Shown here: positions 24,737 to 53,971 of the stretch, one piece after another
Position numbering within the stretch: the first letter of the stretch is position 1
How the letters are laid out: each line of letters opens with the position of its first letter
From: Lachnospiraceae bacterium
GTDB taxonomy: Bacteria > Bacillota > Clostridia > Lachnospirales > Lachnospiraceae
NCBI GenBank assembly: GCA_017472605.1
Contig: JAFUPV010000005.1
Location: forward strand, 1 to 64,000
Direction: 5' to 3'
Length of the DNA stretch: 64,000 nucleotides
Notes under the pieces: generated by a model
The model's database searches: none
What the model was told of the DNA's origin: nothing
The model's input: the letters and a program-made list of their open reading frames with translations, nothing else
Made by a program: the position numbers and the translations under genes

Positions 24737-24780
24737 AGGAAGAAATGTTTTTTTCTGGACAGCAGAAAGGAATTGAGTCA

Positions 24781-38206: not shown

Positions 38207-38235
38207 TTGCACAATCCGGTAAAATACGCTATACT
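38207..38235 (+). promoter_or_regulatory. Distal sigma-A promoter of the malate dehydrogenase gene
   Basis: TTGCAC (38207-38212), 17 nt, TATACT (38230-38235). It lies about 170 nt before the gene. Confidence 0.6.
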
Positions 38236-38320
38236 ACTATCGAATATGAAAAAATCCGGGCGAGTGTGCCGCTGCACGCCTGTCCGGATGATAAACAATA
38301 CGAATTTCCGCAGATTACTA

Positions 38321-38349
38321 TTGCTTTTTCTGCAGAGATTTGTTATATT
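38321..38349 (+). promoter_or_regulatory. Proximal promoter of the malate dehydrogenase gene
   Basis: TTGCTT (38321-38326), 17 nt, TATATT (38344-38349). The -10 lies inside the Rex-type palindrome, so repressor binding would block it. Confidence 0.6.
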
Positions 38350-38357
38350 TATAACAA
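38340..38357. promoter_or_regulatory. Rex-type redox operator
   Basis: The perfect palindrome TTGTTATATTTATAACAA matches the Rex consensus TTGTTAANNNNTTAACAA except at the inner pair (T/A for A/T). Rex senses NADH/NAD+ and represses fermentative and reductive genes when NADH is low. Its place over a -10 directly upstream of malate dehydrogenase is as expected for such control. Confidence 0.75.
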
Positions 38358-38404
38358 ATTCGTTAATGAATTATCAAACCTAACAGATGAAAGGAGATTC
38401 AGTC

Positions 38405-39358
38405 ATGGGAAGTAAAATCACCATCATTGGTGCAGGATCCGTTGGCGCTACGATTGCATACACATTATCACAGGAGGACTATGTATCAGAAATCCTGATT
38501 ATTGACGTTCTGAAGGATAAGGTTGACGGCGAGGCAATGGATATTGCACAGGGTACCGCGTTCCGTGATCCGATCGATGTTTATTCAGGAAACTATGAGG
38601 ATGCAGTAGGTTCTGACATCGTTATTATTACATCCGGTATTGCAAGAAAGCCAGGTCAGAGCCGCATTGAGCTTGCTCAGACAAATGTTAACATCATCAA
38701 GAGCATCGCTCCGCAGCTGAAGAAGTACTGTCCGGATGCACTTTTCATCATCGTGGCAAATCCGGTTGACATCATGACCTACGCTTTCATCAAGGTTTCC
38801 GGAATTCCGGAGCAGCAGGTTATCGGTTCCGGTACACTGCTTGACACAGCAAGACTTCGTTATGGTCTGTCCAAGCATTTCGATGTTGCACAGAAGAACA
38901 TTCACGCATACATCTTCGGTGAGCACGGCGACACTTCCTTCGTTCCGTGGTCCATTTCCAACATCGCAAGCGTACCGGTTAAGGAGTACAGCCAGTTCAT
39001 CGAGCAGAAGGATGAGAACATGCCTGCATTCGATGAGGAAGTGATCACCAACTATGTACGCAAGTCCGGCGGCGAGATCATCAAGAGAAAGGGCGCAACC
39101 TTCTATGGTGTAACCGTAGCTGTTGTAAACCTGGTAAGCATGCTGAATGCGGCTTCCGAGTCCATCACAACCGTTTCTACCATGATGCACGGTGAGTATG
39201 GTGTGGATGATGTCTGTACCAGCTGCCTGACCATCGTTGGACCAAAGGGTGTCAAGGGCAAGCTTCCGGTTAAGCTTGAGCCGGAAGAGATTGAGAAGTT
39301 CCAGGCAAGTGCAAACGCACTGAAGGCAGTCATTGCCGATCTGGATCTGTCCTGCTGA
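38405..39358 (+). CDS. mdh: Malate dehydrogenase of the LDH-like family
   Basis: A 317-residue NAD-dependent 2-hydroxyacid dehydrogenase. The Rossmann loop is GAGSVGATIAY, the catalytic His lies in GEHGDTSFVPWS at about 173, and NPVDI contains the usual active-site Asn. The specificity loop reads ARKPGQSRIEL: the residue equivalent to LDH Gln102 is Arg (about residue 81), which in this family marks malate/oxaloacetate rather than lactate/pyruvate. Automatic tools would probably call it L-lactate dehydrogenase. GAAAGGAG precedes the ATG at 38405. It stands before fumarase and fumarate reductase genes, as expected for reduction of oxaloacetate to succinate. Confidence 0.75.
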   Translation: MGSKITIIGAGSVGATIAYTLSQEDYVSEILIIDVLKDKVDGEAMDIAQGTAFRDPIDVYSGNYEDAVGSDIVIITSGIARKPGQSRIELAQTNVNIIKSIAPQLKKYCPDALFIIVANPVDIMTYAFIKVSGIPEQQVIGSGTLLDTARLRYGLSKHFDVAQKNIHAYIFGEHGDTSFVPWSISNIASVPVKEYSQFIEQKDENMPAFDEEVITNYVRKSGGEIIKRKGATFYGVTVAVVNLVSMLNAASESITTVSTMMHGEYGVDDVCTSCLTIVGPKGVKGKLPVKLEPEEIEKFQASANALKAVIADLDLSC

Positions 39359-39380
39359 TCAATTGAAAAGTTAATAGAAA

Positions 39381-39404
39381 GGCGGACAGACATGTCCGCC
39401 TTTT
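39381..39404 (+). terminator. Hairpin after malate dehydrogenase
   Basis: GGCGGACA pairs with TGTCCGCC around four nucleotides, followed by TTTT. The short T-run may allow partial read-through into the fumarase cluster. Confidence 0.65.
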
Positions 39405-39508
39405 AAGCCTGAAATCAGACCGGCTGACACGGATTCCGCTGCAGGCTGTCTTCTTTTGTCGGCAAAAGAAACGGATACTGATTCAGGAAAATAAAGGAGG
39501 AGAGTACA

Positions 39509-40873
39509 ATGGAGTATCGTATCGAAAGAGATTCCATGGGCGAGATGCAGGTTCCTGCTGACAAGTACTGGGCGGCTCAGACACAGAGAAGCTTCCAGAA
39601 CTTTAAGATCGGCGGCGAGAAGATGCCGGCTGAGATCGTTCATGCATTTGGTATTTTAAAGAAGGGTGCAGCAATTGCCAACTGGAAGCTTGGCAAGCTG
39701 GACGAAGAGAAGAAGGACTACATCTGCAAGGCATGTGACGAGGTCATCGACGGGTCCCTGGCAGATCACTTCCCGCTTGTCGTATGGCAGACAGGAAGCG
39801 GCACACAGTCCAACATGAATTCCAATGAGGTTATTGCCAACCGCGGCAACGAGATCGCAGGAAAGAAGCTTCTTCATCCGAACGATCATATCAACATGTC
39901 CCAGAGTTCCAACGACACCTTCCCGACTGCTCTTCACATTGCAGCAGCAATGAGCATCGAAGACAAGCTTTTCCCGGCTATGGACAAGCTGATCGCTACA
40001 TTCAGGCGTCTTGAGTCCGAGAATGAGGATGTGGTAAAGAGCGGACGTACCCATCTGCAGGATGCAGTGCCGATCCGTTTTTCCCAGGAGATCAGCGGAT
40101 GGACCAACATGCTGGAAAAGACAAGAAAGATGCTGGAGCTGTCCCTGCCTGGCTTAAAGGAGCTGGCACTGGGCGGAACTGCAGTAGGAACCGGTCTGAA
40201 TGCGCCGAAGAACTTCGGTGAGACCGTTGCATCTGTGATCAGCGAGCTGACCGGTAAGGAGTTTACCACTGCTGAGAACAAGTTCCATGCACTGACCGCA
40301 AAGGATGACATCACCTTCGCTCACGGTGCGCTGAAGGCTCTGGCTGCCGATCTGATGAAGATCGCAAACGATGTTCGCTGGCTGGCAAGCGGCCCGAGAT
40401 GCGGACTTGGTGAGATCACCATTCCGGAGAACGAGCCGGGAAGCTCCATCATGCCTGGTAAGGTAAACCCGACCCAGTGTGAGTCCCTGACCATGGTTGC
40501 TGTCCAGGTAATGGGCAACGATGCAGCAGTTGGTTTTGCTGCAAGCCAGGGTAACTTCGAACTGAATGTGTTTATGCCGGTAATCGCTTACAACTTCCTG
40601 CAGTCCGTAAGACTGCTGGCTGACGGCATCATTTCCTTCAACGATAACTGCGCTGTCGGAATTCAGGCGAAGAGAGACAAGATGAGCCACAACCTGCACA
40701 ACTCCCTGATGCTGGTAACTGCTCTGAATCCGTACATCGGCTACGACAATGCGGCAAAGACAGCGAAGAAGGCATTTAAGGATAATATTTCCCTGAAGGA
40801 AGCCTGCGTGGAGCTGGGATTCCTGACAGCGGAGAAATTTGATGAAGTATTCCATCCGGAAGAGATGGCATAA
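39509..40873 (+). CDS. fumC: Class II fumarase
   Basis: A 454-residue oxygen-stable fumarate hydratase of standard length. The superfamily signature GSSIMPGKVNP is at about residues 311-321. GSGTQSNMN near 95, the HPNDHINMSQSSND block near 125-138 and SGRTHLQDA near 177 complete the active site. In this setting it would run in the direction malate to fumarate. GGAGGAG precedes the ATG. It ends 10 nt before hdrB and so heads the Hdr-Flx-fumarate reductase cluster. Codon use from here to 51 kb is noticeably more biased (AAG, GAG, ATC, CTG) than in the flanking genes, suggesting high expression. Confidence 0.93.
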   Translation: MEYRIERDSMGEMQVPADKYWAAQTQRSFQNFKIGGEKMPAEIVHAFGILKKGAAIANWKLGKLDEEKKDYICKACDEVIDGSLADHFPLVVWQTGSGTQSNMNSNEVIANRGNEIAGKKLLHPNDHINMSQSSNDTFPTALHIAAAMSIEDKLFPAMDKLIATFRRLESENEDVVKSGRTHLQDAVPIRFSQEISGWTNMLEKTRKMLELSLPGLKELALGGTAVGTGLNAPKNFGETVASVISELTGKEFTTAENKFHALTAKDDITFAHGALKALAADLMKIANDVRWLASGPRCGLGEITIPENEPGSSIMPGKVNPTQCESLTMVAVQVMGNDAAVGFAASQGNFELNVFMPVIAYNFLQSVRLLADGIISFNDNCAVGIQAKRDKMSHNLHNSLMLVTALNPYIGYDNAAKTAKKAFKDNISLKEACVELGFLTAEKFDEVFHPEEMA

Positions 40874-40883
40874 GGAGAATCAC

Positions 40884-41669
40884 ATGAAATACAGTTACTA
40901 TCCAGGCTGCACCCTGAAGACAAAAGCAAAAGAGTTAAATGACTATGCGATTGCGTCTGCGAAGGCACTTGGTATTGAACTGGAAGAGGTTGAGAACTGG
41001 CAGTGCTGCGGCGGTGTTTATACCGCCGCTGACGATGAAATCGCTACCAAGCTTTCTTCCGTTCGTGCGCTGGCACAGGCAAGAGACAAGGGACAGGATC
41101 TGATCACCCTCTGCTCCGCCTGCTACAACGTAATCAAGCGTGTCAACAATGACATCAAGACCAAGGAAGAATTCTGCACCAAGGTGAACAATTACATGGC
41201 ACCGGATATGGAATATCACGGTGAGGCAAAGATCGTTCACTTCCTTGAGATGATTCGGGACGAGATCGGTTTTGACAATCTGAAGAAAATGGTAGTAAAT
41301 CCGTTAAAGGGCAGAAAGATCGGCGCTTACTACGGATGTCTGCTGCTTCGTCCGGGCGACGTGATGCAGTTTGACGATCCGGAAAATCCGCAGATCATGG
41401 AGGATTTCATTAAGGCTCTTGGCGCAACACCGGTGATCTTTGCACAGAGAAACGAGTGCTGCGGCGGATATCAGACCTTAAATGATAAGGCTCTGGCAGA
41501 AAAGCGCAGCGAGAAGGTGGTTGCTTCCGCACTGTATAAGGGTGCCGACTGCCTGATCACAGCCTGTCCGCTCTGCCGTTACAATCTGGTTGCAAATGCT
41601 TCCAGTGAGATTCCAGTTTATTACTTTACCGAGCTGCTTGCAGAGGCGCTGGGTGTGAAGGAGGGTTAA
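40884..41669 (+). CDS. hdrB: HdrB-like subunit with two CCG domains
   Basis: A 261-residue protein with two cysteine-rich CCG domains: CTLKTK ... WQCCGG ... CSACYN (residues about 9-80) and GCLLLRP ... NECCGG ... CPLCRYN (about 150-235). In HdrB these bind two non-cubane [4Fe-4S] clusters that reduce a disulfide; related CCG domains occur in thiol:fumarate reductase subunit B. The substrate here is unlikely to be CoM-S-S-CoB, since nothing methanogenic is present. It begins 10 nt after fumarase and hdrC follows immediately. The ATG at 40884 with AAGGAG is preferred. Confidence 0.88.
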   Translation: MKYSYYPGCTLKTKAKELNDYAIASAKALGIELEEVENWQCCGGVYTAADDEIATKLSSVRALAQARDKGQDLITLCSACYNVIKRVNNDIKTKEEFCTKVNNYMAPDMEYHGEAKIVHFLEMIRDEIGFDNLKKMVVNPLKGRKIGAYYGCLLLRPGDVMQFDDPENPQIMEDFIKALGATPVIFAQRNECCGGYQTLNDKALAEKRSEKVVASALYKGADCLITACPLCRYNLVANASSEIPVYYFTELLAEALGVKEG

Positions 41670-41670
41670 T

Positions 41671-42051
41671 ATGGCTGTCGATAAAGAAACCATTTTACGC
41701 ATCAGCGGTGTGAATCCGCGTCAGTGCATGAAGTGCGGCAAATGCTCCGGAACCTGTCCTGCATACAACGAGATGGAATACCATCCGCATCAGTTCGTCA
41801 GCATGGTAGAGAACGGAAATCTTGAACCGCTTCTGAAGTCCGAGTCCCTGTATCTTTGCCTGTCCTGTATGGCATGCGTGCAGAGATGTCCGCGTCAGGT
41901 AGCACCGGGCAAGCTGGTTGAGGCTGTCCGTCTGGCTGTTGTCCGTCAGCAGAACATGGATCATCTGGTACCGGATCAGATTCCGGCAATGCTGGATCCC
42001 GAGCTGCCGCAGCAGGCAATCGTCAGTGCGTTCCGTAAGTACAAGAAATAA
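41671..42051 (+). CDS. hdrC: HdrC-like iron-sulfur subunit
   Basis: A 126-residue soluble ferredoxin-like subunit with two [4Fe-4S] motifs, CMKCGKCSGTCP (about 20-31) and CLSCMACVQRCP (about 63-74). In HdrABC it carries electrons from the HdrA flavin to the HdrB clusters. The gene starts one base after the hdrB stop. The 86-nt gap before hdrA contains two short hairpins (42057-42089 and 42091-42113), which may tune mRNA stability. Confidence 0.88.
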   Translation: MAVDKETILRISGVNPRQCMKCGKCSGTCPAYNEMEYHPHQFVSMVENGNLEPLLKSESLYLCLSCMACVQRCPRQVAPGKLVEAVRLAVVRQQNMDHLVPDQIPAMLDPELPQQAIVSAFRKYKK

Positions 42052-42056
42052 TGTCA

Positions 42057-42113
42057 CACAGATAAGTCGCCTTTGATGGCGTGTCTGTAACGGAGAGGAA
42101 ACAATCCGTTGCA
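42057..42113 (+). other. Two small hairpins between hdrC and hdrA
   Basis: ACAGA/CGCC pair with GGCG/TCTGT (42057-42089), and AACGGA pairs with TCCGTT (42091-42112). There is no T-run, so these are more likely mRNA processing or stability elements than terminators. Confidence 0.35.
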
Positions 42114-42137
42114 AATGATATAATTTAGGAGACAAAG

Positions 42138-44123
42138 ATGCAGAAAATAGGAGTATTTGTATGTTGGTGCGGCAGTAATATCGCCGCCACGGTAGATGTT
42201 GCCGCTGTGGTAGAAGCTTTAAAGAAGCAGCCCGGCGTTGTCTATGCAACGGACTACCAGTATATGTGTTCCGCCAGCGGACAGAACCTTATTAAAGATG
42301 CGATTAAGGAATACGGACTGACCGGTGTTGTTGTCTGTTCCTGTTCCCCGCGTATGCATGAGGCTACCTTCCGTAAAACTGTACAGGCGGCAGGACTGAA
42401 CCCGTACATGCTGGAAATCGCAAACATTCGTGAGCAGTGTTCCTGGATCCACAAGGATATCAAGGAGGGCACCGAGAAAGCGATCATCCTTGGCGCAGCT
42501 GCCATCGCAAAGGTTCAGCTCAATGCACCGCTGTATTCCCAGACCAGCCCGGTTGTGAAGCGCGCGCTGGTAATCGGCGGCGGTATCGCAGGTATTCAGA
42601 CCGCTCTGGATATTGCGGATGCCGGATTTGAAGTAGACATCGTAGAGAAGAAGCCGACCATCGGCGGAAAGATGTCTCAGCTTGACAAGACATTCCCGAC
42701 CCTCGACTGTGCGGCATGTATCCTGACACCAAAGATGGTAGATGCAGGCGCTCACGAGAAGATCAACCTGTATACATACTGTGAGGTTGAAAAGGTAGAA
42801 GGCTTTGTTGGTAACTTCAGCGTAACCATCAAGCAGAAGCCGCGTTACATTGATGCCACCAAGTGTACCGGATGCGGTGCCTGTGTGGAGAAGTGTCCGT
42901 CCAAGAAGACTCCCAACGAGTTCAACATGGGACTGGACAACCGTACTGCAATTTACATTCCGTTTGCTCAGGCAGTGCCGAAGCTGGCGGTTATTGATAA
43001 GGATGCCTGCATCCATTTTAAGAACGGCAAGTGCGGTCTTTGTGTAAGAACCTGTGAGGCTGGCGCAATCAACTACGACCAGACCGAAGAGTTCATCACA
43101 AGAGAGTATGGCGCAATCGTTGTTGCAACCGGATTCAATCAGATCAAGCCAACCAACTTTGACGAGTATCTGTACAACCAGAGCAAGGACGTTGTTACCT
43201 CTCTTGAGTTTGAGCGTATCATGAACGCTGCCGGACCGACAAAGGGCCATCTTGTTCGCCCGTCCAACGGCAAGCAGCCGAAGAACATTGTTTTCGTACA
43301 GTGTGTCGGCTCCCGCGGTACCTCCTGCAGAGACAAATCCTACTGTTCCAAGATCTGCTGTATGTATACAGCAAAGCATGCAATGCTGGTTAAGGATCAC
43401 CATCCGGAAATTGACGTTACCGTATTCTATATTGATGTCCGTACACCTGGTAAGAACTTTGATGAGTTCTATCGCCGCGCTGTTGAGCAGTATGGCGTTC
43501 ACTACATCAAGGGTATGGTCGGCAAGGTAGAAGAGGCGGACGGAACACTGAAGGTTCAGGCTTCCGATCTGTTGGATAACAGACAGATTCTGATGGATGC
43601 AGATATGGTCGTTCTGGCTGCTGCCATCGAACCGGATCCAACCGCAAGAAGCATCGCTACCATGCTTACCGCAAGCATGGATACCAATGACTTCTTTACA
43701 GAGGCTCACGCAAAGCTGCGTCCGGTAGAGAGCCCGACCGCCGGTATTTTCCTGTCCGGTGTCTGCCAGGGACCGAAGGATATCCCGGAGACCGTTGCTC
43801 AGGCAAGTGCTGCGGCAGCAAAGGTAATCGGCCTGCTGGCGAAGGATCATCTGCTCTGCAACGCATGTGTGGCTCATTCCGATGAGACCCTCTGCAACGG
43901 CTGTTCCCAGTGTGCTAACGTCTGCGCATATGGCGCGATCACATACGAGGATCGTCTTGTTATGGATAAGGGCGTTCGCGAGACAAGAAGAGTGGCTGTT
44001 GTCAACGAAGCTATCTGCCAGGGCTGCGGTGCATGTACCGTTACCTGTCCGTCCGGCGCGATGGATCTGAGAGGCTTCGCAAATAATCAGATTATGGCGG
44101 AGGTTGACGCAATATGCAAGTAA
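42138..44123 (+). CDS. hdrA: HdrA-like flavoprotein, candidate bifurcating subunit
   Basis: A 661-residue subunit. An N-terminal Cys-containing region (VCWCGSN, VCSCSPRMHE) is followed by the FAD site VIGGGIAGIQTALDIADAG at about 148. A CAACILTP motif precedes CTGCGACVEKCPSKK, and a second Fe-S group lies at CIHFKNGKCGLCVRTC. The C-terminal ferredoxin part (about 575-650) has CNGCSQCANVCAYG and CQGCGACTVTCPSG. HdrA FAD is the known site of flavin-based electron bifurcation in methanogens and in Flx-Hdr. The next gene overlaps by 10 nt. Length and motif order match HdrA of the short, non-fused type. Confidence 0.9.
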   Translation: MQKIGVFVCWCGSNIAATVDVAAVVEALKKQPGVVYATDYQYMCSASGQNLIKDAIKEYGLTGVVVCSCSPRMHEATFRKTVQAAGLNPYMLEIANIREQCSWIHKDIKEGTEKAIILGAAAIAKVQLNAPLYSQTSPVVKRALVIGGGIAGIQTALDIADAGFEVDIVEKKPTIGGKMSQLDKTFPTLDCAACILTPKMVDAGAHEKINLYTYCEVEKVEGFVGNFSVTIKQKPRYIDATKCTGCGACVEKCPSKKTPNEFNMGLDNRTAIYIPFAQAVPKLAVIDKDACIHFKNGKCGLCVRTCEAGAINYDQTEEFITREYGAIVVATGFNQIKPTNFDEYLYNQSKDVVTSLEFERIMNAAGPTKGHLVRPSNGKQPKNIVFVQCVGSRGTSCRDKSYCSKICCMYTAKHAMLVKDHHPEIDVTVFYIDVRTPGKNFDEFYRRAVEQYGVHYIKGMVGKVEEADGTLKVQASDLLDNRQILMDADMVVLAAAIEPDPTARSIATMLTASMDTNDFFTEAHAKLRPVESPTAGIFLSGVCQGPKDIPETVAQASAAAAKVIGLLAKDHLLCNACVAHSDETLCNGCSQCANVCAYGAITYEDRLVMDKGVRETRRVAVVNEAICQGCGACTVTCPSGAMDLRGFANNQIMAEVDAICK

Positions 44124-44563
44124 ATGAAATCGAAAAGAAAGAATATACTCCGTTGATCGTGGCTTTCTGCTGTAACTGGTGTTCCTATGCCGGTGCTGAC
44201 CTTGCGGGAAGCAGCCGTCTGAACTACCCGGCAAACGTAAAGATCATCCGTGTTCCATGCTCCTGCCGTGTGAATCCGCTGTTCATTCTCCGTGCGTTCC
44301 AGCGCGGCGCAGACGGCGTGATCATGTGCGGATGCCACCCGGGTGACTGCCATTACTCCACCGGAAACTACTATGCAAGAAGAAGAATGACTCTGCTGTT
44401 CTCCATGCTGGATTATCTTGGCATTGAGAGAGCGCGTACCAGAGTTGAGTGGGTTTCCGCTGCAGAAGGTGCAAAGTTCGCTGCCGTTATGAATGAGTTT
44501 GCCGAAACCATCAACAGACTCGGCGAGAACAGAAAGTTGAGGGATCTGCGATGCGAGAAATAA
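44114..44563 (+). CDS. flxD: MvhD/FlxD-like [2Fe-2S] linker subunit
   Basis: A 149-residue hydrogenase-associated iron-sulfur subunit. Cysteines at CCNWCSYAGADLAG (about 17-20), PCSCRVNP (about 50) and CGCHPGDCHY (about 75-82) match the MvhD family, which passes electrons to HdrA. Its start overlaps hdrA by 10 nt and its end overlaps the next gene by 13 nt. No hydrogenase large or small subunit is nearby, so the electron donor is the downstream NAD(P)-binding module instead. Confidence 0.85.
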   Translation: MQVNEIEKKEYTPLIVAFCCNWCSYAGADLAGSSRLNYPANVKIIRVPCSCRVNPLFILRAFQRGADGVIMCGCHPGDCHYSTGNYYARRRMTLLFSMLDYLGIERARTRVEWVSAAEGAKFAAVMNEFAETINRLGENRKLRDLRCEK

Positions 44564-45534
44564 AAGAATTACTGGTTCAGAAGATCAATGAGCTGCTGGA
44601 CAACGGCACGGTTGACCGTGTTGCAGGCTGGAAAGCCGGTGAATTCTGCTATGACGCTGCTCCTGCAGTATTCACAAAAGAGAATATTGACGAATTATTA
44701 TACAACGGTTTCTGCGGCGCAAACCAGAGCAAGTTCCTGGTAAACGCAGCAACAACCGAAAACAGGATCCTGGCGCTGTTAAAGCCGTGCGATACCTACA
44801 GCTACAATCAGCTGGTTAAGGAGCACAGAGTGGATCCGTCCAGGGTATATGCGCTGGGAATTCCGTGCACAGGCATGGTTGACGTAAACAAGATCAAGGC
44901 TCTTGGCATTACCGGTATCACCGGAATCGAAGAGGATGGCGAGAATCTGAAGATTGCTACCATCTACGGCGACGCATCCTGCAAAAAGTGCGATGTTCTG
45001 TTAGAGCGCTGCATGGTCTGCAAGGGTAAAAACCATGTTGCAGGCGATGAGATGCTGATCCCGGATGAGGAAGCACCGGAAACTCCTTCCTGTGCGGACC
45101 GCATGGCTGAGGTTGCCAGACTGGAGGCAATGACTGAGGAAGAGCGCTTCAACTTCTGGAGAGAGCAGCTGTCCAAGTGCATCCGCTGCAACGCCTGCCG
45201 CAACGCATGTCCGGCATGTACCTGCCGTACCTGTGTCTTTGATAATGCAAAATCCGGCTTAGCTGCCAAGGTAAACAACACCGATTTCGAAGAGAACATG
45301 TTCCACATCATCCGCGCGTTCCACGTTGCCGGTCGCTGTACTGACTGCGGTGAGTGCAGCAGAGTATGTCCGCAGAACATTCCGCTTCACCTGTTAAACC
45401 GTAAGTTCATCAAGGATATCAATGAGTTCTACGGCGAGTTCCAGGCCGGTGCTGATACCACAACTAAGGGACCGCTGACTTCCTTCACAAAGGAAGACTG
45501 TGAGCCGAGTATCGTTATGGAGAGGGGTGAGTAA
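44551..45534 (+). CDS. flxC: Iron-sulfur subunit, FrhB/FlxC-like
   Basis: A 327-residue protein. The N-terminal half resembles the coenzyme F420 hydrogenase beta-type domain (LLKPCDTYSYNQL, VYALGIPCTGMVD), with a CKKC ... CMVCK group at about 147-163. The C-terminal half has CIRCNACRNACPACTCRTC (about 210-228) and CTDCGECSRVCP (about 267-278), so at least two cubane clusters. No F420 biosynthesis is implied; similar subunits occur in Flx complexes. It overlaps the preceding gene and ends 2 nt before the next. Confidence 0.75.
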   Translation: MREIKELLVQKINELLDNGTVDRVAGWKAGEFCYDAAPAVFTKENIDELLYNGFCGANQSKFLVNAATTENRILALLKPCDTYSYNQLVKEHRVDPSRVYALGIPCTGMVDVNKIKALGITGITGIEEDGENLKIATIYGDASCKKCDVLLERCMVCKGKNHVAGDEMLIPDEEAPETPSCADRMAEVARLEAMTEEERFNFWREQLSKCIRCNACRNACPACTCRTCVFDNAKSGLAAKVNNTDFEENMFHIIRAFHVAGRCTDCGECSRVCPQNIPLHLLNRKFIKDINEFYGEFQAGADTTTKGPLTSFTKEDCEPSIVMERGE

Positions 45535-45536
45535 GC

Positions 45537-46568
45537 ATGTTAAAGATTGCAGTAAATGAGATCAATCGTCTGTTTGATGCCATCGCAGCAGTTGAAAACC
45601 TGTACCTTCCGGTTGAAAAGGGAGGAGAGGTTGAGTTCGGTGCTTACTCCGCAGACGCGAAGGTTCGTCTGGATGCTCTTCAGACCGTGAAATCCGCAAA
45701 GGATATGTTTTTCCCATTCTCTGAGAATCTGATGAAATTCCATGTGGAAGGAAAGCAGATTTCTGTCGAAGCAGCAGAGAAGGTGAATGAAGAATTTGTT
45801 GTATTTGGTGTGAGAGCCTGTGACGCAAGAAGCTTTTCCATTCTGGACAAGGTTTTCCTTGCTGATCCGGTTGATACCTACTATGCAGCCAGAAGAGAGC
45901 ACGGCGTGGTTGTTTCCATGGCCTGCAGCAGACCGGAAGAAACCTGTTTCTGCTCCGCGTTCGGCATCGACGCGACAAAGCCGGAGGGCGATGTTGTGAC
46001 ATGGGTTGCTGATGGTGTTCTCTACTGGGAGGCACAGACCGAAAAGGGTGCTGCACTGACCGAAAAGGTAGCAGAAGTCCTTGCTGAAAGCGACAGCGCC
46101 GCTGTGGAAGCACAGCAGGCAGCCGTAAAGGCAATCATGGAAAAGCTGCCGCTTGCAGGTCTTGACCTGTCCTACTTTACCTCCCGTCCGGAGCTGGAGA
46201 TCTTCAAGCGTCCGGAGTGGACAGAACTGTCCAGCCACTGTCTGGGATGCGGAACATGCACCTTTGTATGTCCGACCTGCCAGTGCTATGATGTAAGAGA
46301 TTTCGACAATGGACATGGCATTGAGCGTTACCGCTGCTGGGATTCCTGCATGTACCGTGACTTCACCATGATGGCTCACGGAACAAACAGAAAGACTCAG
46401 GTAGAGCGTTTCCGCCAGAGATTCATGCACAAGCTGGTTTACAATCCGAAGAACCGTGACGGTGAGTTCGGCTGCGTAGGCTGCGGAAGATGCCTGAAGA
46501 AGTGTCCGGTCAACATGAATATTGTCAAGGTTGCTAAGACTCTGTCAGCTGGAGGTGAACAGGCATGA
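45537..46568 (+). CDS. flxB: Iron-sulfur subunit, sulfhydrogenase-beta / AsrA-like (FlxB-like)
   Basis: A 343-residue protein of the family that includes sulfhydrogenase beta subunits and anaerobic sulfite reductase A. VFGVRACDARSFSILDKVF (about 86-104) and CSRPEETCFC (about 128) are typical, followed by CLGCGTCTFVCPTCQCYD (about 236-253) and CVGCGRCLKKCPVN (about 320-333), giving two [4Fe-4S] clusters. Such subunits pass electrons between the NAD(P)H-binding subunit and partner proteins. It overlaps the NAD(P)-binding gene by 4 nt. Confidence 0.8.
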   Translation: MLKIAVNEINRLFDAIAAVENLYLPVEKGGEVEFGAYSADAKVRLDALQTVKSAKDMFFPFSENLMKFHVEGKQISVEAAEKVNEEFVVFGVRACDARSFSILDKVFLADPVDTYYAARREHGVVVSMACSRPEETCFCSAFGIDATKPEGDVVTWVADGVLYWEAQTEKGAALTEKVAEVLAESDSAAVEAQQAAVKAIMEKLPLAGLDLSYFTSRPELEIFKRPEWTELSSHCLGCGTCTFVCPTCQCYDVRDFDNGHGIERYRCWDSCMYRDFTMMAHGTNRKTQVERFRQRFMHKLVYNPKNRDGEFGCVGCGRCLKKCPVNMNIVKVAKTLSAGGEQA

Positions 46569-47398
46569 GTGAAATCAGAGAAGAATTAATTCCCGTGCTT
46601 GGTGTCGTAACCGATATCCGCAAGGATACTCCGGATGTTAAGACCTTCCGTGTGGTAACACCGGAAGGACAGAAGGCATTCAAGCATATGCCGGGACAGT
46701 GCGCAATGCTGTCAATCCCGGGCGTAGGTGAGGCAATGTTCTCCATTACCTCCTCCCCTACCAATGAAGAATACATGGAGTTCTCCATTAAGAAGTGCGG
46801 CTGTCTGACAGACTGGCTCCATCAGATGGAAGTAGGTCAGATGGTGACCATCCGCGGACCGTACGGAAACGGTTTCCCGGTTGAAACCGAGTTAAAGGGC
46901 AAGAACCTGCTCTTCATCGCCGGCGGTATCGGTCTGGCTCCGCTTCGTTCCGTAATCAACTACTGCCGTCACTATCGTGACCAGTATGGCGATATCGATA
47001 TTATCTACGGTTCCCGTTCCATGGACGATCTGGTAGATTTCAAGGAAATTCAGGAAGAGTGGTGTACGGAGGACGGAATCAACGTTCATCTGACCATTGA
47101 CCGTCCGCAGGAAGGCTGGGACGGCCACGTTGGATTCGTACCGGCTTATGTAAACGAGCTCAATCTTTCCTTAGACAAGACCATTCTGATCTGCGGACCG
47201 CCAATCATGATCAAGTTCACCCTGCAGAACCTGCAGGCACTTGGCTTTGAGCGTACTCAGGTTTACACCACCATGGAGCTGCGCATGAAGTGCGGTATCG
47301 GTAAGTGCGGCCGCTGCAACATCGGTTCCAAGTATGTATGTAAGGATGGCCCGGTATTCCGTTTCGATCAGCTGGATGAGCTGCCGGACGAATATTGA
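46565..47398 (+). CDS. flxA: FlxA-like FAD/NAD(P)-binding reductase subunit
   Basis: A 277-residue flavoprotein of the ferredoxin-NADP reductase fold. The FAD part contains FSITSSPT at about 58-66, the NAD(P) part LLFIAGGIGLAPLRSVI at about 115, and the C-terminus MKCGIGKCGRCNIGSKYVCKD at about 240, a [2Fe-2S] site as in AsrB, HydG and dihydroorotate dehydrogenase electron-transfer subunits. It would oxidise NADH for the Hdr complex. It is followed by a 182-nt structured gap before the fumarate reductase genes. Confidence 0.85.
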   Translation: MSEIREELIPVLGVVTDIRKDTPDVKTFRVVTPEGQKAFKHMPGQCAMLSIPGVGEAMFSITSSPTNEEYMEFSIKKCGCLTDWLHQMEVGQMVTIRGPYGNGFPVETELKGKNLLFIAGGIGLAPLRSVINYCRHYRDQYGDIDIIYGSRSMDDLVDFKEIQEEWCTEDGINVHLTIDRPQEGWDGHVGFVPAYVNELNLSLDKTILICGPPIMIKFTLQNLQALGFERTQVYTTMELRMKCGIGKCGRCNIGSKYVCKDGPVFRFDQLDELPDEY

Positions 47399-47409
47399 CG
47401 CGTAGGCAA

Positions 47410-47545
47410 TGAGCCATGCTAAATTCGATGTAAGAACAGATGTGCCGTGCCTGCACGTAAGCAGCTGCTCTTACAGCGAATTTTATAGGGCGAAGCCCGT
47501 GACACGAGAGGAAGCGCAGCGGAATCGAGTGTCGCATGGCGGGTG
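47410..47545 (+). ncRNA. Structured intergenic element between flxA and the fumarate reductase genes
   Basis: An outer stem GCCATGC (47413-47419) with GCATGGC (47534-47540) encloses a long hairpin with 19-nt arms (47421-47439 with 47465-47483, 17 matches), a GGGCGAAGCCC hairpin (47488-47498) and a partially paired GACAC...GTGTC segment (47500-47533). It has no T-run. It could be a repeated extragenic element, an RNA processing site separating expression of the two modules, or a small structured RNA. No known class is recognised. Confidence 0.45.
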
Positions 47546-47580
47546 ATATATTACCAATAATTTGGAGGTAAGGTAATAAA

Positions 47581-48255
47581 ATGGACGAAATGATTAATGT
47601 TTATTTATATGGCAAAAAGTACAGCGTGCCGGCCAGCCTGACCATTATGGAGGCTTTTGAGTATTCCGGCTATCAGCTGGTACGCGGATGCGGATGCCGT
47701 AACGGTTTCTGCGGTGCATGTGCAACCATCTACCGCATTAAGGGTGAGAACACCCTGCATGGATGTCTGGCATGCAGCACCAAGGTTGAGAAGGACATGT
47801 GCGTAGCTTCCCTGCCGTTCTTCCCGTTAGAGAAGAAAATCTACACCATCGAGGAGATCAAGCCGACTCAGGAGATCATGATGCAGCTGTATCCGGAAAT
47901 CTACGCATGCATCGGATGTAACGCATGTACCAAGGCCTGCACACAGCAGCTGAATGTTATGCAGTACATCGCATACGCACAGCGCGCGGAATATGAGAAG
48001 TGCGCAGAAGAGTCCTTTGACTGCGTAATGTGCGGCGTATGTTCTTCCCGCTGCCCGGCAGGAATTTCTCATCCGCAGGTAGCTCTGCTGGCAAGAAGAC
48101 TGACCGGTAAGTACATTAAGCCGGAGGCGAAACACCTGACTCAGAGAGTAGGCGAGATCGCAGACGGCGCGTTTGATGGTGCAATGGCTGACATCATGGG
48201 CAAGTCTGTTGACGAGCTCAAGGAGATGTACAACACCAGAGTGATCGAGAAGTAA
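47581..48255 (+). CDS. frdB: Fumarate reductase iron-sulfur subunit (soluble type)
   Basis: A 224-residue SdhB/FrdB/TfrB-like protein. An N-terminal 2Fe-2S ferredoxin domain has RGCGCRNGFCGAC and HGCLAC (about 35-67). Two C-terminal [4Fe-4S] motifs follow, CIGCNACTKACTQ (about 112-124) and CVMCGVCSSRCPAG (about 147-160). The family quinone site needs membrane anchor subunits, and none is encoded here. This matches soluble thiol:fumarate reductase more than the quinol type; in TfrB the CCG domains are fused, whereas here they sit on the separate HdrB. GGAGGTAAGG precedes the start; the flavoprotein gene follows after 13 nt. Confidence 0.85.
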   Translation: MDEMINVYLYGKKYSVPASLTIMEAFEYSGYQLVRGCGCRNGFCGACATIYRIKGENTLHGCLACSTKVEKDMCVASLPFFPLEKKIYTIEEIKPTQEIMMQLYPEIYACIGCNACTKACTQQLNVMQYIAYAQRAEYEKCAEESFDCVMCGVCSSRCPAGISHPQVALLARRLTGKYIKPEAKHLTQRVGEIADGAFDGAMADIMGKSVDELKEMYNTRVIEK

Positions 48256-48268
48256 GGAGGAGAAGGAC

Positions 48269-49870
48269 ATGAGTTTTCCATATACCGAGGAAATGATGGA
48301 ATCCATCAAGAAGGTGGAAGCGACCAGAGCAGCGCGTATGGCAACTGAGCCGAGACGTATGACTGCTGAGGAAAAGGATGCCTTACTTGAGAAGTACCAT
48401 CCGGACTATAATTTAGACAGCTTTGCAGAGATCATCGTTGGACCGAACAAGGGTCAGAAGGCTCCGAAGGAGCTGGTTGAGCTTCTGCAGGCAAACAGCC
48501 GTGTGAAGGGTATGGATCTGGATCTGACCAACCCGGATTACGATGTGGATGTACTGGTTATCGGCGGCGGCGGCGCAGGTTCTTCTGCAGCAATCGAGGC
48601 AAACGAGGCTGGTGCAAACGTAATGATCGTTACCAAGCTGCGTATCGGTGATGCAAACACCATGATGGCAGAGGGTGGTATCCAGGCTGCTGATAAGGAA
48701 AATGACTCCCCGGCTCAGCACTATCTTGACGTAATGGGCGGCGGACATTTCGCAAACGTTCCGGAGCTGGTTAAGAAGCTGGTTTGTGACGGACCGTCTG
48801 CTGTAAACTGGCTGAATAAGCTCGGCGTTCTGTTCGATAAGGATGAGAACGGAAACATGATCACCACCCACGGCGGCGGAACTTCCCGTAAGAGAATGCA
48901 CGCAGCTGCTGACTATTCCGGTGCTGAGATCATGCGTGTCCTCAGAGATGAGGTTCAGAACCGCAATATCCCGGTTGTCGATTTTACCGCAGCAATCGAG
49001 CTGATTAAGGATACCGAGGGCAAGGCGGCAGGTGCTGTTCTTCAGAACATGGAGACCGGCGAGATCCTGATCGCGCGTGCAAAGTGTGTTGTAATCGCTA
49101 CCGGCGGAGCAGGACGTCTGCACTATCAGGGCTTCCCGACTTCCAACCACTACGGCGCAACCGCTGACGGTCTTGTTCTTGCTTACCGTGCAGGCGCAAG
49201 CCTTCTGTACCAGGATACTCTTCAGTATCATCCGACTGGTGTTGCATTCCCGTCCCAGATCTATGGCGCACTGGTAACCGAGAAAGTTCGTTCCATGGGC
49301 GCGATGTTCTGTAACGCGGAAGGTGAGGCATTCATGCATCCGCTTGAGACACGTGACGTTGCAGCTTCCGGTGTAATCCGCGAGGTAGCAAGAGGAAACG
49401 GCGTTCATACACCGCTTCGTGACGGTATCTGGCTGGATACCCCAATGATCGATGCCATCCATGGCGAGGGAACACTGGAGAAGAGACTTCCTGGTATGCT
49501 CCGCATGTACATGAGATATGACATCGACATGAGAAAAGTGCCGATCGTTATTTACCCGACACTGCACTATCAGAACGGCGGTATCCACATCACAGAGGAC
49601 GGCATGTCCGATATCGAGAACCTGTATGTAGCAGGTGAGGCAGTTGGAGGAATCCACGGAAGAAACCGTCTGATGGGCAACTCTCTGCTTGATATCATCG
49701 TATTCGGCCGTAATGCCGGTCAGCAGGCTGGTAAGAAGTGCAAGGAAGTTACACTTGCTGAGCCGACTCTGAGCCATGTTGACAGCTTCGCTGCTGAGTG
49801 CGCAGAAGCCGGAATCAAGACCGATGTTGTTTCTCCGAAGGTTCTGCCGGATTACAGACGTCAGAAATAA
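48269..49870 (+). CDS. frdA: Fumarate reductase / succinate dehydrogenase flavoprotein subunit
   Basis: A 533-residue FAD protein. An N-terminal extension of about 90 residues precedes the dinucleotide site VLVIGGGGAGSSAAIEANEAG. MMAEGGIQAA and THGGGTSRKRMHA lie near the flavin. Active-site motifs are QYHPTGVAFPS (about 325), TEKVRSMGAMF and a late IHGRNRLMGNSLLD (about 467), with HYQNGGIHI carrying a substrate His. No signal peptide, heme motif or anchor, so it works in the cytoplasm. It reduces fumarate to succinate using electrons from the iron-sulfur subunit. AGGAGGAGAAGG lies before the ATG. Confidence 0.88.
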   Translation: MSFPYTEEMMESIKKVEATRAARMATEPRRMTAEEKDALLEKYHPDYNLDSFAEIIVGPNKGQKAPKELVELLQANSRVKGMDLDLTNPDYDVDVLVIGGGGAGSSAAIEANEAGANVMIVTKLRIGDANTMMAEGGIQAADKENDSPAQHYLDVMGGGHFANVPELVKKLVCDGPSAVNWLNKLGVLFDKDENGNMITTHGGGTSRKRMHAAADYSGAEIMRVLRDEVQNRNIPVVDFTAAIELIKDTEGKAAGAVLQNMETGEILIARAKCVVIATGGAGRLHYQGFPTSNHYGATADGLVLAYRAGASLLYQDTLQYHPTGVAFPSQIYGALVTEKVRSMGAMFCNAEGEAFMHPLETRDVAASGVIREVARGNGVHTPLRDGIWLDTPMIDAIHGEGTLEKRLPGMLRMYMRYDIDMRKVPIVIYPTLHYQNGGIHITEDGMSDIENLYVAGEAVGGIHGRNRLMGNSLLDIIVFGRNAGQQAGKKCKEVTLAEPTLSHVDSFAAECAEAGIKTDVVSPKVLPDYRRQK

Positions 49871-49964
49871 ATCCGATGCCTATTGGCAGGTAATACAAAA
49901 GTAAAGGGTCGGACAGGCGAAGTGAGGAGCGTCTGTCCGGCTTTATGAGGGAAGGGGTTATTCC

Positions 49965-51128
49965 ATGGATTTTATTAATGAGATACTGTCTAATTCTGTG
50001 TTTCAGGTGTTCATTGTTGCCGTAATCGGTTACATTCTCGGCAGCATCACAATTAAGGGCATTGAGATCGGTGACGCAGGAATCCTGATCGTTGCGCTGG
50101 TAGCAGGTCATTTTGGCGTGCAGGCACCGGCATTTGTAAACGATCTTGGCGTTGTACTGTTTGTAGCGTCTGTCGGCCTGATTGCCGGACCGAAGTTCTT
50201 CCATAACTTTGCGAAGAACGTGAAGTCCTATGTTCTTCTTGGTTTCTGCATCATTCTTGCCGGAACCCTCTGTACCATCCTGATTACTGTTATTTCCGGA
50301 ATCGATTCCGCACTGTCTGCAGGTCTGATGTCCGGTGCGCTGACCAGCACGCCTGGTCTTGCAGCAGCACAGGAAGCTGCAGCAGGAGGCGCAGACCCGA
50401 CAAGAGAAGCACTTGTTTCCGTTGGATACGGAATCGCATATCCGTTTGGAGTCATCGGCGTTGTTCTGTTTGTACAGCTGATGCCGAAGGTTCTGAAGGT
50501 GGACATGGCTGTTGAGAGAAAGAAGCTGGAGGCAGAGAACGCAACCGCAGCTGCGGAAGCTCCGAAGAAAAAGTGGTTCGCCGTTGAGCATCTTGGTATG
50601 ATGCCGCTGTGTCTGACCGTTGCACTTGGTGTCATCATCGGAAAGATCACCATTCCGCTTCCGGGCGGCGCTTCATTCGCACTTGGAACCTCCGGCGGTC
50701 CGCTGCTGGCAGGTCTGATCATCGGTCACTTCGGCCACATCGGTCCGTTTGACCAGCATCCGAGAAAGAGCCTTCTGGAGTGCATGCGTGAGTTCGGTCT
50801 GATCCTGTTCCTGATCGGTGCAGGTACCAAGGGCGGAGCCGGTTTTGTCAACATCATCACCACCTATGGTCCGATGCTGTTTGTATATGGCGCAATCATT
50901 ACTCTTGTACCGATGGTAATTGGCTATCTCTTTGCAAGCAAGGTTCTGAAGCTTCCGATCCTGAACAACATGGGTGCGCTTTGCGGCGGTATGACAAGTA
51001 CTCCTGCTCTTGGAACTCTGATCCAGGTAACCGGAACGGATGATGTAGCAACTGCTTACGCATCTACCTATCCGATTGCTCTGGTAGCAGTTGTTCTGTT
51101 TGAGCAGCTGGTTGTTCTGTTCTTCTAA
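49965..51128 (+). CDS. AspT/YidE-family (AAE) membrane exchanger, likely C4-dicarboxylate
   Basis: A 387-residue multi-pass protein with two homologous halves, as in the aspartate:alanine exchanger family. GALTSTPGLAAAQEAA in the first half and GGMTSTPALGTLIQVTG in the second are the paired signature motifs. A hydrophilic Lys/Glu-rich loop at about 180-205 separates the halves. The usual TrkA_C domains are absent, giving a minimal version. Its position at the end of the succinate-forming cluster suggests export of succinate, or exchange of aspartate, malate or fumarate for succinate. That substrate is inference. A strong terminator follows. Confidence 0.8.
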   Translation: MDFINEILSNSVFQVFIVAVIGYILGSITIKGIEIGDAGILIVALVAGHFGVQAPAFVNDLGVVLFVASVGLIAGPKFFHNFAKNVKSYVLLGFCIILAGTLCTILITVISGIDSALSAGLMSGALTSTPGLAAAQEAAAGGADPTREALVSVGYGIAYPFGVIGVVLFVQLMPKVLKVDMAVERKKLEAENATAAAEAPKKKWFAVEHLGMMPLCLTVALGVIIGKITIPLPGGASFALGTSGGPLLAGLIIGHFGHIGPFDQHPRKSLLECMREFGLILFLIGAGTKGGAGFVNIITTYGPMLFVYGAIITLVPMVIGYLFASKVLKLPILNNMGALCGGMTSTPALGTLIQVTGTDDVATAYASTYPIALVAVVLFEQLVVLFF

Positions 51129-51164
51129 ATAAAACAGGGATCGTTTTTCAAACGATTCGTGATG

Positions 51165-51212
51165 AAGCCTTCGGCTGACAGGTAATCTGTTGACCGAAGG
51201 CTTAAATTTTTC
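51165..51212 (+). terminator. Rho-independent terminator of the succinate cluster
   Basis: AAGCCTTCGG pairs with CCGAAGGCTT (51165-51174 and 51194-51203), followed by AAATTTTT. It closes the fumarase-to-exchanger region. Confidence 0.8.
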
Positions 51213-51242
51213 TTAAATCAACGGTTTTTCGTCTGCCTTTTG

Positions 51243-51271
51243 TTGCTTAACAAAAATAAATATGTTATGAT
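51243..51271 (+). promoter_or_regulatory. Sigma-A promoter of the P-type ATPase gene
   Basis: TTGCTT (51243-51248), 17 nt, TATGAT (51266-51271), about 90 nt before the start codon. Confidence 0.6.
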
Positions 51272-51362
51272 ATCAGCTACCATGTGGGTTCAGAAGAAAC
51301 GTGCGAAACAAAGGCGCGTTTCGGAAGAAGGATCATTCTCATTGAAAAGGAAGGAGTACAAA

Positions 51363-53971
51363 ATGATTTTTCATGAAGCAGGCAGAGATGACGTAGTAAA
51401 AGAACTGTCATCCAATGCGGTCAGCGGACTCAGTGAAGAACAGGCAGCGCAGAAACGCAGTCAGTTTGGGGAGAACCGTCTGAAAGAGAAGAAGAAGAAA
51501 ACGAATCTTCAGCGATTTGCAGAGCAGTTTAAGGATGCCATGATCCTGATTCTGATTGCTGCTGCAGTGATTTCGTTTGTTGTTGCATGCATGGAGGGAG
51601 AGGCGAAGGAATTTTTTGAACCGCTGCTGATCCTTCTGATCGTTGTGCTGAACGCTGTCATCGGCGTGATGCAGGAGAGCAAAGCGGAGAAGGCACTGGA
51701 TGCACTCAAAAGCCTTTCGGCGCCCCATGCCAGAGTCATTCGTAATGGCAGTGAAAAAGTCATTGATGCGGCTGAGCTGGTGCCGGGTGATGTGATTCAT
51801 CTGGAGGCCGGTGATTTTATACCGGCTGATGCCAGACTGCTTCGCAGCACAAGCCTGAAATGTGAAGAATCGGCGCTGACCGGTGAATCCGTTCCGGCAG
51901 AAAAAGACGCGGAACTGATGGTAGCCAAAGATGCGCCTCTTGGGGACCGCAGCAACATGGTATTCTCCGGCTGCAGCGTAACCTACGGAACGGCAACTGC
52001 TATCGTTACCGGCACAGGAATGGACACAGAAATGGGCAAGATTGCAAACCTGCTGGACAGCGAGGCTGAGAATCAGACACCGCTGCAGCAGAAGCTGTCG
52101 CAGCTTGGCAAGTATCTTGGTGTGATGGCGCTCGTTGCATGTGCGATCATTTTCGTTGTCGGCATTGCCAATGGAATTCCGGCGATGGAAATTTTCATGA
52201 CGGCAATTTCTCTTGCTGTTTCCGCAATTCCGGAAGGCCTTCCAGCAATTGTAACCGTTGTTCTTTCCATCGGTGTGCAGCGAATGGTAAAGAAGAATGC
52301 AATCATCCGCAGCCTGCCGGCGGTTGAGACGCTGGGAAGCGCTTCCGTCATCTGCTCCGATAAGACGGGAACCCTGACTCAGAACCGCATGACTCTTGTC
52401 CGTGCATACTGGGATGAGAGCGGAAAGACAGAAGAAATTACCGTGGAGAATTCTGCTGAAATCCGCAAACTTCTCTGCTATGGCGCTCTTTGCTGTGACG
52501 GCGCTGTTGTGTTCAACGGCAGCGAAGAAACACATATCGGTGATCCCACCGAAACCTCCATCATCTATGCAGCCCACAAGAACGGCATGCCGAAGGAGGA
52601 GCTGGCAAAGAAATATCCGCGTCTGGCGGAACTGCCGTTTGATTCCGACCGGAAACTGATGTCGACAGTGAACCGAATCGACGGCAAACTGGTTGTGATC
52701 ACCAAGGGTGCGTTCGATATGATGGCGCAGCGCTGCAGCGCCGGAAATCTGGAGAAAGCCAGAATTGAGACGGAGCAGATGAGTGCGCAGGCGCTCCGTG
52801 TGCTTGCAATCGGATACAAGGTAATTGATGAAATTCCTGCAAATCCCACTTCAGAGGAACTGGAAAACGGTCTGACTCTGATGGGTCTTGTGGGCATGAT
52901 TGATCCGCCGCGTCAGGAGGCAGCGGATGCAGTTGCTGTCTGCCGGAAAGCAGGCATTAAACCGGTCATGATTACCGGCGACCATGTTACGACTGCTTCT
53001 GCCATTGCAAAAGCCCTTGGAATCATGGAAGATGGAGATCAGGCGATCACCGGCGCACAGCTGGATCAGATGACAGACAGAGAGCTGGATCAGAATGTAG
53101 AGAAGATTTCTGTCTATGCACGTGTTTCACCGGAAAATAAAATCCGCATCGTCAAGGCATGGCAGCGCCGCGGTCAGGTGGTATCCATGACTGGTGACGG
53201 CGTCAACGATGCGCCGGCACTGAAAGCGGCAGACATCGGCTGTGCGATGGGAATTACCGGAACCGATGTGGCAAAGGCGCAGCGGACATGACGCTGACGG
53301 ATGATAACTTCGCGACGATTGTTGATGCAGTCCGTGAAGGACGCGGCATCTATGCAAACATCAAGAAAGTCGTTGGATTCCTTCTCGGAACCAACATCGG
53401 AGAAGTCATTGCTGTGTTCTCTGCCATGATGCTCTGGCACAAAACACCGCTGCTGTCCATGCAGCTTCTCTGGATCAACCTGGTAACCGACAGTTTACCT
53501 GCAATTGCCCTTGGCATGGAAGCCGTTGAGGCCGACGTCATGGAGCAGAAGCCGAAGCCAAAATCAGAAGGTCTGTTTGCAAACGGTTTCGGTGTCCGCA
53601 TCGCGCTTCAGGGTGTCATGTTCGGTGTTCTCGCCCTGATCGCATATTGGGCAGGTGAAACGGTGACTGGCGCAGCAGAAGGCGGACAGACGCTCGCCTT
53701 CATGGTTCTTGCTCTTTCCCAGGTGGTTCAGGCGTTTAACATGCGTTCCGACCACTCGCTGTTCAAGATTGGTTTCTTTGGAAATAAGACGCTGAACAAG
53801 GCCGTTCTTGCATCGGTTCTGATGATGGTGCTTGTACTGTTCACTCCGCTGCGGGCGGTATTCGGTCTGATTGCTCTGCCGTGGCAGCTGTATTGTCTTG
53901 GCCTGGTACTGATTTTTGTACCGCTGGTGATCATGGAAGGTGCAAAAGCGCTTGGATTAATCAAGAAGTGA
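51363..53971 (+). CDS. Calcium-type P2A ATPase split by a one-base frameshift
   Basis: Two frames (51363-53291 and 53288-53971) together give a full-length cation-transporting P-type ATPase of about 869 residues. The first part has TGES at about 173, the phosphorylation site DKTGTLTQNR at about 333 and GDGVNDAPA before the break. The second begins MTLTDDNFATIV and holds the last six helices with NLVTDSLPAIALGME. The family motif DVAKGAADM is interrupted: one G is missing from a run near 53276. ATG of the second frame overlaps TGA of the first (ATGA), so a split two-chain ATPase is possible, but a disabling mutation or sequencing error is simpler. GGAAGGAG precedes 51363. Substrate probably Ca2+. 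Confidence 0.8.

Follow-up and report, generated by a model that had tools for sequence, protein, structure and literature searches.

A soluble fumarate reductase joined to Hdr-Flx genes in a Lachnospiraceae bacterium: a candidate for ferredoxin-coupled fumarate reduction

Described relatives and composition of the locus

The closest described counterpart of the gene cluster considered here is the 'succinate operon' of Pseudoclostridium thermosuccinogenes (PMC7282089). It comprises a fumarase, Flx-Hdr, a fumarate reductase and a hypothetical protein, perhaps the exporter of succinate. In the accessible part of that publication the reductase is described as 'linked to ferredoxin reduction', a statement for which a preprint of 2019 is given as the source (10.20944/preprints201912.0288.v1, known to us by this citation only). 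We analysed 64,000 nucleotides of a Lachnospiraceae bacterium (assembly GCA_017472605.1, contig JAFUPV010000005.1; hereafter the window), in which twelve genes, each an open frame in the window's list of open reading frames, occupy positions 38387-51128 of the forward strand. Their content and order agree with the published operon: fumarase, HdrABC with FlxABCD (in P. thermosuccinogenes a locus-tag span fitting seven genes), a soluble fumarate reductase of two genes, and a transporter that may carry succinate, with the same hypothesis attached. This likeness is one of listed gene content and order, and a malate dehydrogenase is not listed in what we had of that account. An earlier note, made from the letters of the window, had given the same genes on one strand with overlaps or short gaps, as we find them; its statement that no described system has this layout was mistaken, since both layout and hypothesis are in print (PMC7282089). 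Judged by titles and the first lines of abstracts, no other description of this operon was found. The idea is supported but not new, and the host operon adds to a kind already proposed.

The Hdr-Flx part has the subunit set of FlxABCD-HdrABC from Desulfovibrio vulgaris, and the same chemistry has been proposed for that complex (Ramos 2015, as related in the accessible parts of PMC10920352 and PMC7282089). HdrA, an HdrB with two CCG domains, HdrC, FlpD, a nucleotide-binding FlxA and FlxB are all present. D. vulgaris has FlxC and FlxD as a single polypeptide, with DsrC proposed as the partner; the host has separate flxC and flxD genes with frdBA attached to the cluster, and no DsrC was found in its genome.

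Three kinds of fumarate reductase are relevant to the frdBA pair. The thiol:fumarate reductase of methanogens, TfrAB, is soluble, and TfrA is the best NCBIfam model for the host FrdA, although its 337 bits lie below the cut-off of 718. The earlier note had set FrdB beside TfrB, but the two differ in build: the CCG half of TfrB is absent from the host protein, which ends in a dicluster domain instead, and a separate HdrB would fill the place of that half. MFR/SdhE-type (type E) complex II provides a precedent for a fumarate reductase accompanied by a CCG protein, and MFR SdhE is the best NCBIfam model for HdrB (155.7 bits, cut-off 500; the HdrB model itself gives 148.7 bits); the host differs in that nothing suggests a role for quinone and the two cubane motifs of FrdB are both full [4Fe-4S] motifs. 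Canonical quinol:fumarate and succinate:quinone reductases share the FrdA fold (E. coli FrdA, 1kf6_A, TMq 0.70), but the host FrdB reaches only 28 bits with their SdhB/FrdB model TIGR00384 (cut-off 88) and lacks the [3Fe-4S] spacing, and the FAD of FrdA is predicted to be non-covalent. No membrane-anchor gene occurs among the open frames of the cluster, to which this search was confined (no genome-wide anchor search was made); at that level the result agrees with the earlier note, which gave FrdA as lacking an anchor.

The genes of the cluster, with the evidence for each, are as follows:

38387..39358, + strand: malate dehydrogenase (likely) of the lactate dehydrogenase-like type, labelled L-lactate dehydrogenase by NCBIfam (Pfam/NCBIfam, Arg at the specificity position)
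39509..40873, + strand: fumC, class II fumarase (TIGR00979, 733.7 bits, cut-off 664.75)
40884..41669, + strand: hdrB, two CCG domains with all ten cluster Cys (domains, Cys conservation)
41671..42051, + strand: hdrC, two [4Fe-4S] motifs (Pfam/NCBIfam, eight conserved Cys)
42138..44123, + strand: hdrA, FAD protein, putative bifurcating subunit (NF040770, 789.5 bits; 681 bits to the solved HdrA 8rvu_a)
44114..44563, + strand: flxD, FlpD/MvhD family (PF02662, 188.3 bits)
44551..45534, + strand: flxC, Fe-S connector similar to FdhB of Fdh-Hdr complexes (8rvu_E, E = 6.4e-24)
45537..46568, + strand: flxB, HydB/AsrA-like Fe-S protein (Pfam/NCBIfam)
46565..47398, + strand: flxA, NAD(P)H/FAD subunit with a DHODB-type Fe-S domain (Pfam/NCBIfam)
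47581..48255, + strand: frdB, [2Fe-2S] and HdrC-like two-[4Fe-4S] domain (motifs, domain comparison)
48269..49870, + strand: frdA, soluble fumarate reductase flavoprotein with Asn replacing the covalent-FAD His (NCBIfam, motifs, fold match)
49965..51128, + strand: AspT/YidE-type permease, likely a C4-dicarboxylate carrier (PF06826, TIGR01625)

Gaps between the genes range from -13 to 182 bases; from fumC to the permease they measure, in gene order, 10, 1, 86, -10, -13, 2, -4, 182, 13 and 94 bases, and the two largest are those between flxA and frdB (182) and between mdh and fumC (150). The flxA-frdB gap (47399-47580) contains an apparent inverted repeat; a 70-base piece of it is single in the genome and has no Rfam match. 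This gap may allow frdBA levels to be set separately from those of the other genes.

A proposed route from NADH to fumarate and ferredoxin

On the sequence evidence, the cluster is real and conserved, and it is likely an energy-coupling operon. With a probability of roughly 0.6, we propose that its products form a soluble complex in which two NADH would be oxidised, one electron pair passing through HdrA, HdrC and HdrB to FrdB-FrdA and fumarate, and the other to ferredoxin. FlxAB would take hydride from NADH, while the FdhB-like FlxC together with FlxD would pass electrons to the flavin of HdrA. There the electrons would be split, the low-potential branch leading to ferredoxin and the high-potential branch running through HdrC, HdrB and FrdB to FrdA, where fumarate would be reduced to succinate for export by the permease.

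Ferredoxin potentials lie between -420 and -500 mV. For fumarate and NADH, E0' values of +33 mV and -320 mV, respectively, are given in the accessible part of PMC5861303. With these potentials, oxidation of two NADH by fumarate with concomitant ferredoxin reduction yields about -33 to -49 kJ/mol, so that the coupling would be energetically affordable. If instead Flx-Hdr fed FrdBA without bifurcation, the complex would be a soluble NADH:fumarate reductase of the ordinary kind, as in Hydrogenobacter thermophilus, whose fumarate reductase was reportedly described by Miura in 2008 (to go by the title in a reference list). The lack of a detectable NQR2/RnfD/RnfE-family gene for using the extra ferredoxin, in the host genome and two genus-mates, would suit such an enzyme, but the uncoupled reaction would waste ~68 kJ/mol, and HdrA is full length, HdrA2-like, with FAD and ferredoxin domains and with its 681-bit match to the HdrA of a heterodisulfide,ferredoxin reductase (8rvu_a). 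We regard an enzyme of this kind as quite improbable.

The use of reduced ferredoxin in bifurcating hosts may differ between lineages. Among 38 carriers hand-picked from the FrdB-bearing genomes, the set used also for the FlpD, DsrC and SdhB/FrdB counts below, a [FeFe] hydrogenase domain occurs in 37, host included, and an NQR2/RnfD/RnfE-family gene in 25, Ruminococcus flavefaciens included. In the host genus, in which no Rnf-family gene was found, reduced ferredoxin would be consumed by [FeFe] hydrogenase or in biosynthesis; where an Rnf-family gene exists, as in R. flavefaciens, an ion gradient could be driven by it. Published observations on P. thermosuccinogenes also count in favour of the proposed complex: according to the accessible part of PMC7282089, CO2 limitation raised the operon about 4-fold, a change that did not reach significance for all subunits, and 85% H2 nearly abolished succinate formation, sulfide having the opposite effect.

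HdrC keeps its eight cluster Cys in 89/89 rows, and the GG(I/V) motif and four C-terminal Cys of FlxA are present in 90/90. The host genome contains a single FlpD gene, as do 37/38 carriers in all (G257, one of the genomes that we designate by G numbers, has three), and its only CCG domains are the two of the cluster HdrB. A canonical SdhB/FrdB above cut-off was found in one of the 38 carriers (G257); G399 has a 77-bit partial match below it.

FrdB (224 residues) has only Fer4 domains according to Pfam, and no CCG domain. In an alignment retaining 123 of 125 FrdA/FrdB rows, it displays a [2Fe-2S] motif and two full [4Fe-4S] motifs, CxxCxxCxxxC; this cluster make-up is a new, testable addition to the published proposal. 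FrdA has the residues expected of a fumarate reductase flavoprotein: among the 123 rows, H321, R341 and H433 are present in 119/119 and R467 in 120/120 of those with letters at these positions. Of its 533 residues, 90 to ~500 match known flavoproteins; an extension precedes this stretch at the N-terminus, and the C-terminal domain is absent. Asn stands in the position of the covalent-FAD His in 123/123 rows. Loss of this His abolishes succinate oxidation and spares fumarate reduction, which argues, together with the malate dehydrogenase and fumarase of the same operon, against a complex running in reverse, that is, succinate oxidation with confurcation to NADH. Although Hdr-Flx has been proposed to be bidirectional in Desulfovibrio (accessible part of PMC10920352), we give the reverse direction hardly any credence.

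Linkage and phylogeny of the Hdr and Frd subunits

FrdB was detected in 39/398 genomes of the phylum, host included (E up to 1e-20); two genomes of the same genus were also searched, and both have it. Among named genomes, a scan confirmed at least 411 relatives, of which the best 80 were kept; these are biased towards close relatives and include R. flavefaciens FD-1 (locus L040) and ATCC 19208 (L046), three Treponema metagenome-assembled genomes (MAGs) and one Synergistaceae MAG. Among these best 80 of at least 411, every named locus with at least 9 kb upstream (59/59, R. flavefaciens included) carries the complete set of seven hdr/flx genes on the strand of frdBA, an arrangement far from chance and, across named loci, new here; the permease is near frdBA in 41 of the 50 named loci that have flank to either side. 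All six relatives that we fetched from the family and order likewise hold the seven genes. Conserved hdrABC-flx-frdAB neighbourhoods, which the earlier note had suggested looking for, therefore exist. Its proposal that bifurcation ends in fumarate fits most of our tests and the gene linkage, and random association, which it had named as the contrary outcome, is excluded for the host's clade (59/59), though not for the whole FrdBA family. The 38 loci of the phylum sample, which is less biased, have hdrB and hdrC near frdBA in 19 cases, hdrA, flxD and flxC in 16, and flxA and flxB in 5; for the 30 loci with 6 kb on both sides the corresponding numbers are 18, 14 and 5.

HdrA and HdrB group by the presence of FrdBA. 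For these two trees named loci were thinned further than for the FrdAB tree described below, and rows from FrdB-less genomes came from the 30 best matches to HdrA in a selection of 68 genomes, plus G389. Linked HdrA copies below 600 bits were dropped, namely the second HdrA of the loci of family f59, seven of which lay far outside in an earlier tree; for HdrA genes with an in-frame TGA the longer open piece was used, and the split one of G130 was omitted. The resulting HdrA tree (68 rows) has a clade of 41 with a Shimodaira-Hasegawa-like approximate likelihood ratio test (SH-aLRT) value of 90. It holds 34/35 of the frdBA-linked HdrAs, 7/11 of those from genomes with FrdBA elsewhere (G010, G091, G185, G210, G235, G350, G370) and 0/22 from FrdB-less genomes. 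G389 lacks both FrdB and the Frd-type HdrA, both of which its family-mates G010, G185 and G350 possess. The HdrAs with an in-frame TGA (L176, L179, L181-L185, L187, L191), likely a selenocysteine codon, lie outside the clade.

In the HdrB tree, one side of a branch with bootstrap/SH-aLRT support of 100/100, chosen after inspection of the tree, holds 37/41 rows of FrdBA genomes and 0/19 of FrdB-less ones, and the split holds also where hdrB and frdBA are unlinked. Species ancestry alone is an unlikely cause, because G044 and G252 carry both kinds of HdrB, with the Frd-type copy beside frdBA. Ten positions separate the two kinds, several of them beside cluster ligands (T10, S78, V83, Y196); at V83, 18/19 rows of FrdB-less genomes have Arg. 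That HdrB sequences follow FrdBA presence is a further new and testable addition.

The FrdAB tree (76 of 123 aligned rows, named loci thinned, midpoint-rooted) places the full operon in separate positions: the host clade, a group of G005, G052, G056 and G095, in which frdBA precedes hdr so that the full set occurs in two gene orders, and G257. At least four changes of this character, gains or losses, are forced by the starred branches; repeated loss explains the scatter as well as repeated gain. Reduced and altered loci exist as well. hdrCB-frdBA without hdrA nearby occurs in G044, G252, G300 and G364, and perhaps in G276, whose 3.8-kb contig is too short to show what lies nearby. This form, in the order hdrC-hdrB-frdB-frdA, is seen at the loci L117, L129, L131 and L138 (and at L127, cut short), with TRAP transporter genes adjoining in L129, L131 and L138; such loci are possibly a minimal HdrB-FrdB unit. 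In another variant, frdBA is preceded by hdrCB-hdrA, a second HdrA-like protein, which in L134 is of double length, flxD and a gene for an Fe-S protein, and is followed by 2-oxoglutarate:ferredoxin oxidoreductase and succinyl-CoA ligase. In the f59 loci L132-L137, L139-L141 and L143 and in L130 (G281), frdBA occurs with hdrA, flxD and an Fe-S protein, most also having hdrC, hdrB and the second HdrA-like protein, with kor and/or suc behind and neither flxA nor flxB seen in the cluster; these are perhaps a reductive tricarboxylic acid cycle version with another electron input. In further loci frdBA stands alone, and several of these adjoin fumarase, malic enzyme or pyruvate carboxylase.

The first gene of the cluster scores above the NCBIfam cut-off for L-lactate dehydrogenase (TIGR01771). 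Arg occupies the lactate/malate specificity position in 42 of the 43 family rows with a letter there, the cluster's own gene included, and we take this residue to denote malate as substrate. Malate is thus the likely substrate, and malate dehydrogenase, the name given in the earlier note, is likely the better reading notwithstanding the NCBIfam label. Just downstream of the cluster, a P-type cation ATPase is split over the overlapping frames 51240-53291 and 53288-53971, owing to a frameshift or an assembly error. Elsewhere in the window, 24745-31062 encodes a protein of 2105 residues that has, close to the N-terminus, an M56 peptidase domain of the BlaR1 type.

The acceptor of HdrB and the meaning of the operon

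A number of observations weigh against ferredoxin-coupled fumarate reduction by an Hdr-Flx-Frd complex. Judged by titles and abstract openings, biochemical proof for any member of the family was not found in the literature. In the phylum sample flxA and flxB lie beside frdBA in 5/38 loci only, as against 19/38 for hdrB. The correspondence in the trees has exceptions: 5/46 HdrA rows of FrdBA genomes fall outside the clade (the G281 fragment, the second module of G130, G039, G044 and G252), and on the other side of the HdrB branch are G039, the second modules of G044 and G252, and L130 of G281, a frdBA-linked locus with the other kind of HdrB. Moreover, FlpD is absent from 4/39 FrdB-bearing genomes (G067, G071, G296, G380), and in the first three of these no CCG protein was found either; in G071 and G296 frdBA lies beside pyruvate carboxylase. 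On the midpoint-rooted FrdAB tree, the host clade has G071, G296 and G380 as its closest neighbours, with G067 inside it on a long branch. FrdBA can therefore use another donor and is not bound to Hdr everywhere. These carriers would also fit an FrdBA that works without Hdr-Flx and only shares its transcript; given the 59/59 linkage, the single FlpD and an HdrB split that follows FrdBA even where the genes are unlinked, we hold this to be very improbable for the operon.

Further doubt concerns the step between HdrB and FrdB. HdrB retains all ten CCG Cys, with both motifs complete, in 89/89 rows, as expected of a disulfide reductase. HdrB might accordingly reduce a small disulfide carrier, the thiol of which would then feed FrdB, comparable to DsrC in Desulfovibrio or coenzyme M/coenzyme B in methanogens, and DsrC is the reported Flx-Hdr partner in D. 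vulgaris (accessible part of PMC10920352). DsrC, which does not define such systems elsewhere, was found in 0/38 carriers, host (G000) included, in a search that detected the E. coli positive control. FrdB has no CCG domain and the host genome no other CCG protein to accept electrons from a thiol, and Pfam/NCBIfam annotation revealed no thioredoxin-like gene among the cluster's twelve. A carrier of this sort seems unlikely to us.

A more specific form of direct HdrB-to-FrdB transfer is that the FrdBA-associated HdrB lineage has become a dedicated wire. It would have lost disulfide chemistry, its two non-cubane clusters delivering electrons to the HdrC-like domain of FrdB, and fumarate would replace the heterodisulfide as the high-potential acceptor of bifurcation, whether in one operon, in co-evolving unlinked modules or in minimal HdrCB-FrdBA units without HdrA beside them. 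We put this forward tentatively, with somewhat more doubt than confidence: the C-terminal half of FrdB is a dicluster domain nearest to HdrC, carbon monoxide dehydrogenase (CODH) and RnfC, and its HdrC match is tied with that to CODH, which weakens the idea and is a further point against the complex as a whole.

If ferredoxin-coupled fumarate reduction does operate here, many Clostridia and a few Treponema and Synergistaceae MAGs would form succinate by an energy-saving bifurcation and not by a loss or a membrane respiration. HdrABC would gain a non-disulfide acceptor, and the HdrB clade would allow acceptor choice to be approached from sequence. One enzyme would link succinate to reduced ferredoxin and H2. 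R. flavefaciens forms less succinate when methanogens are present (accessible part of PMC7174568), and this trade-off would become testable.

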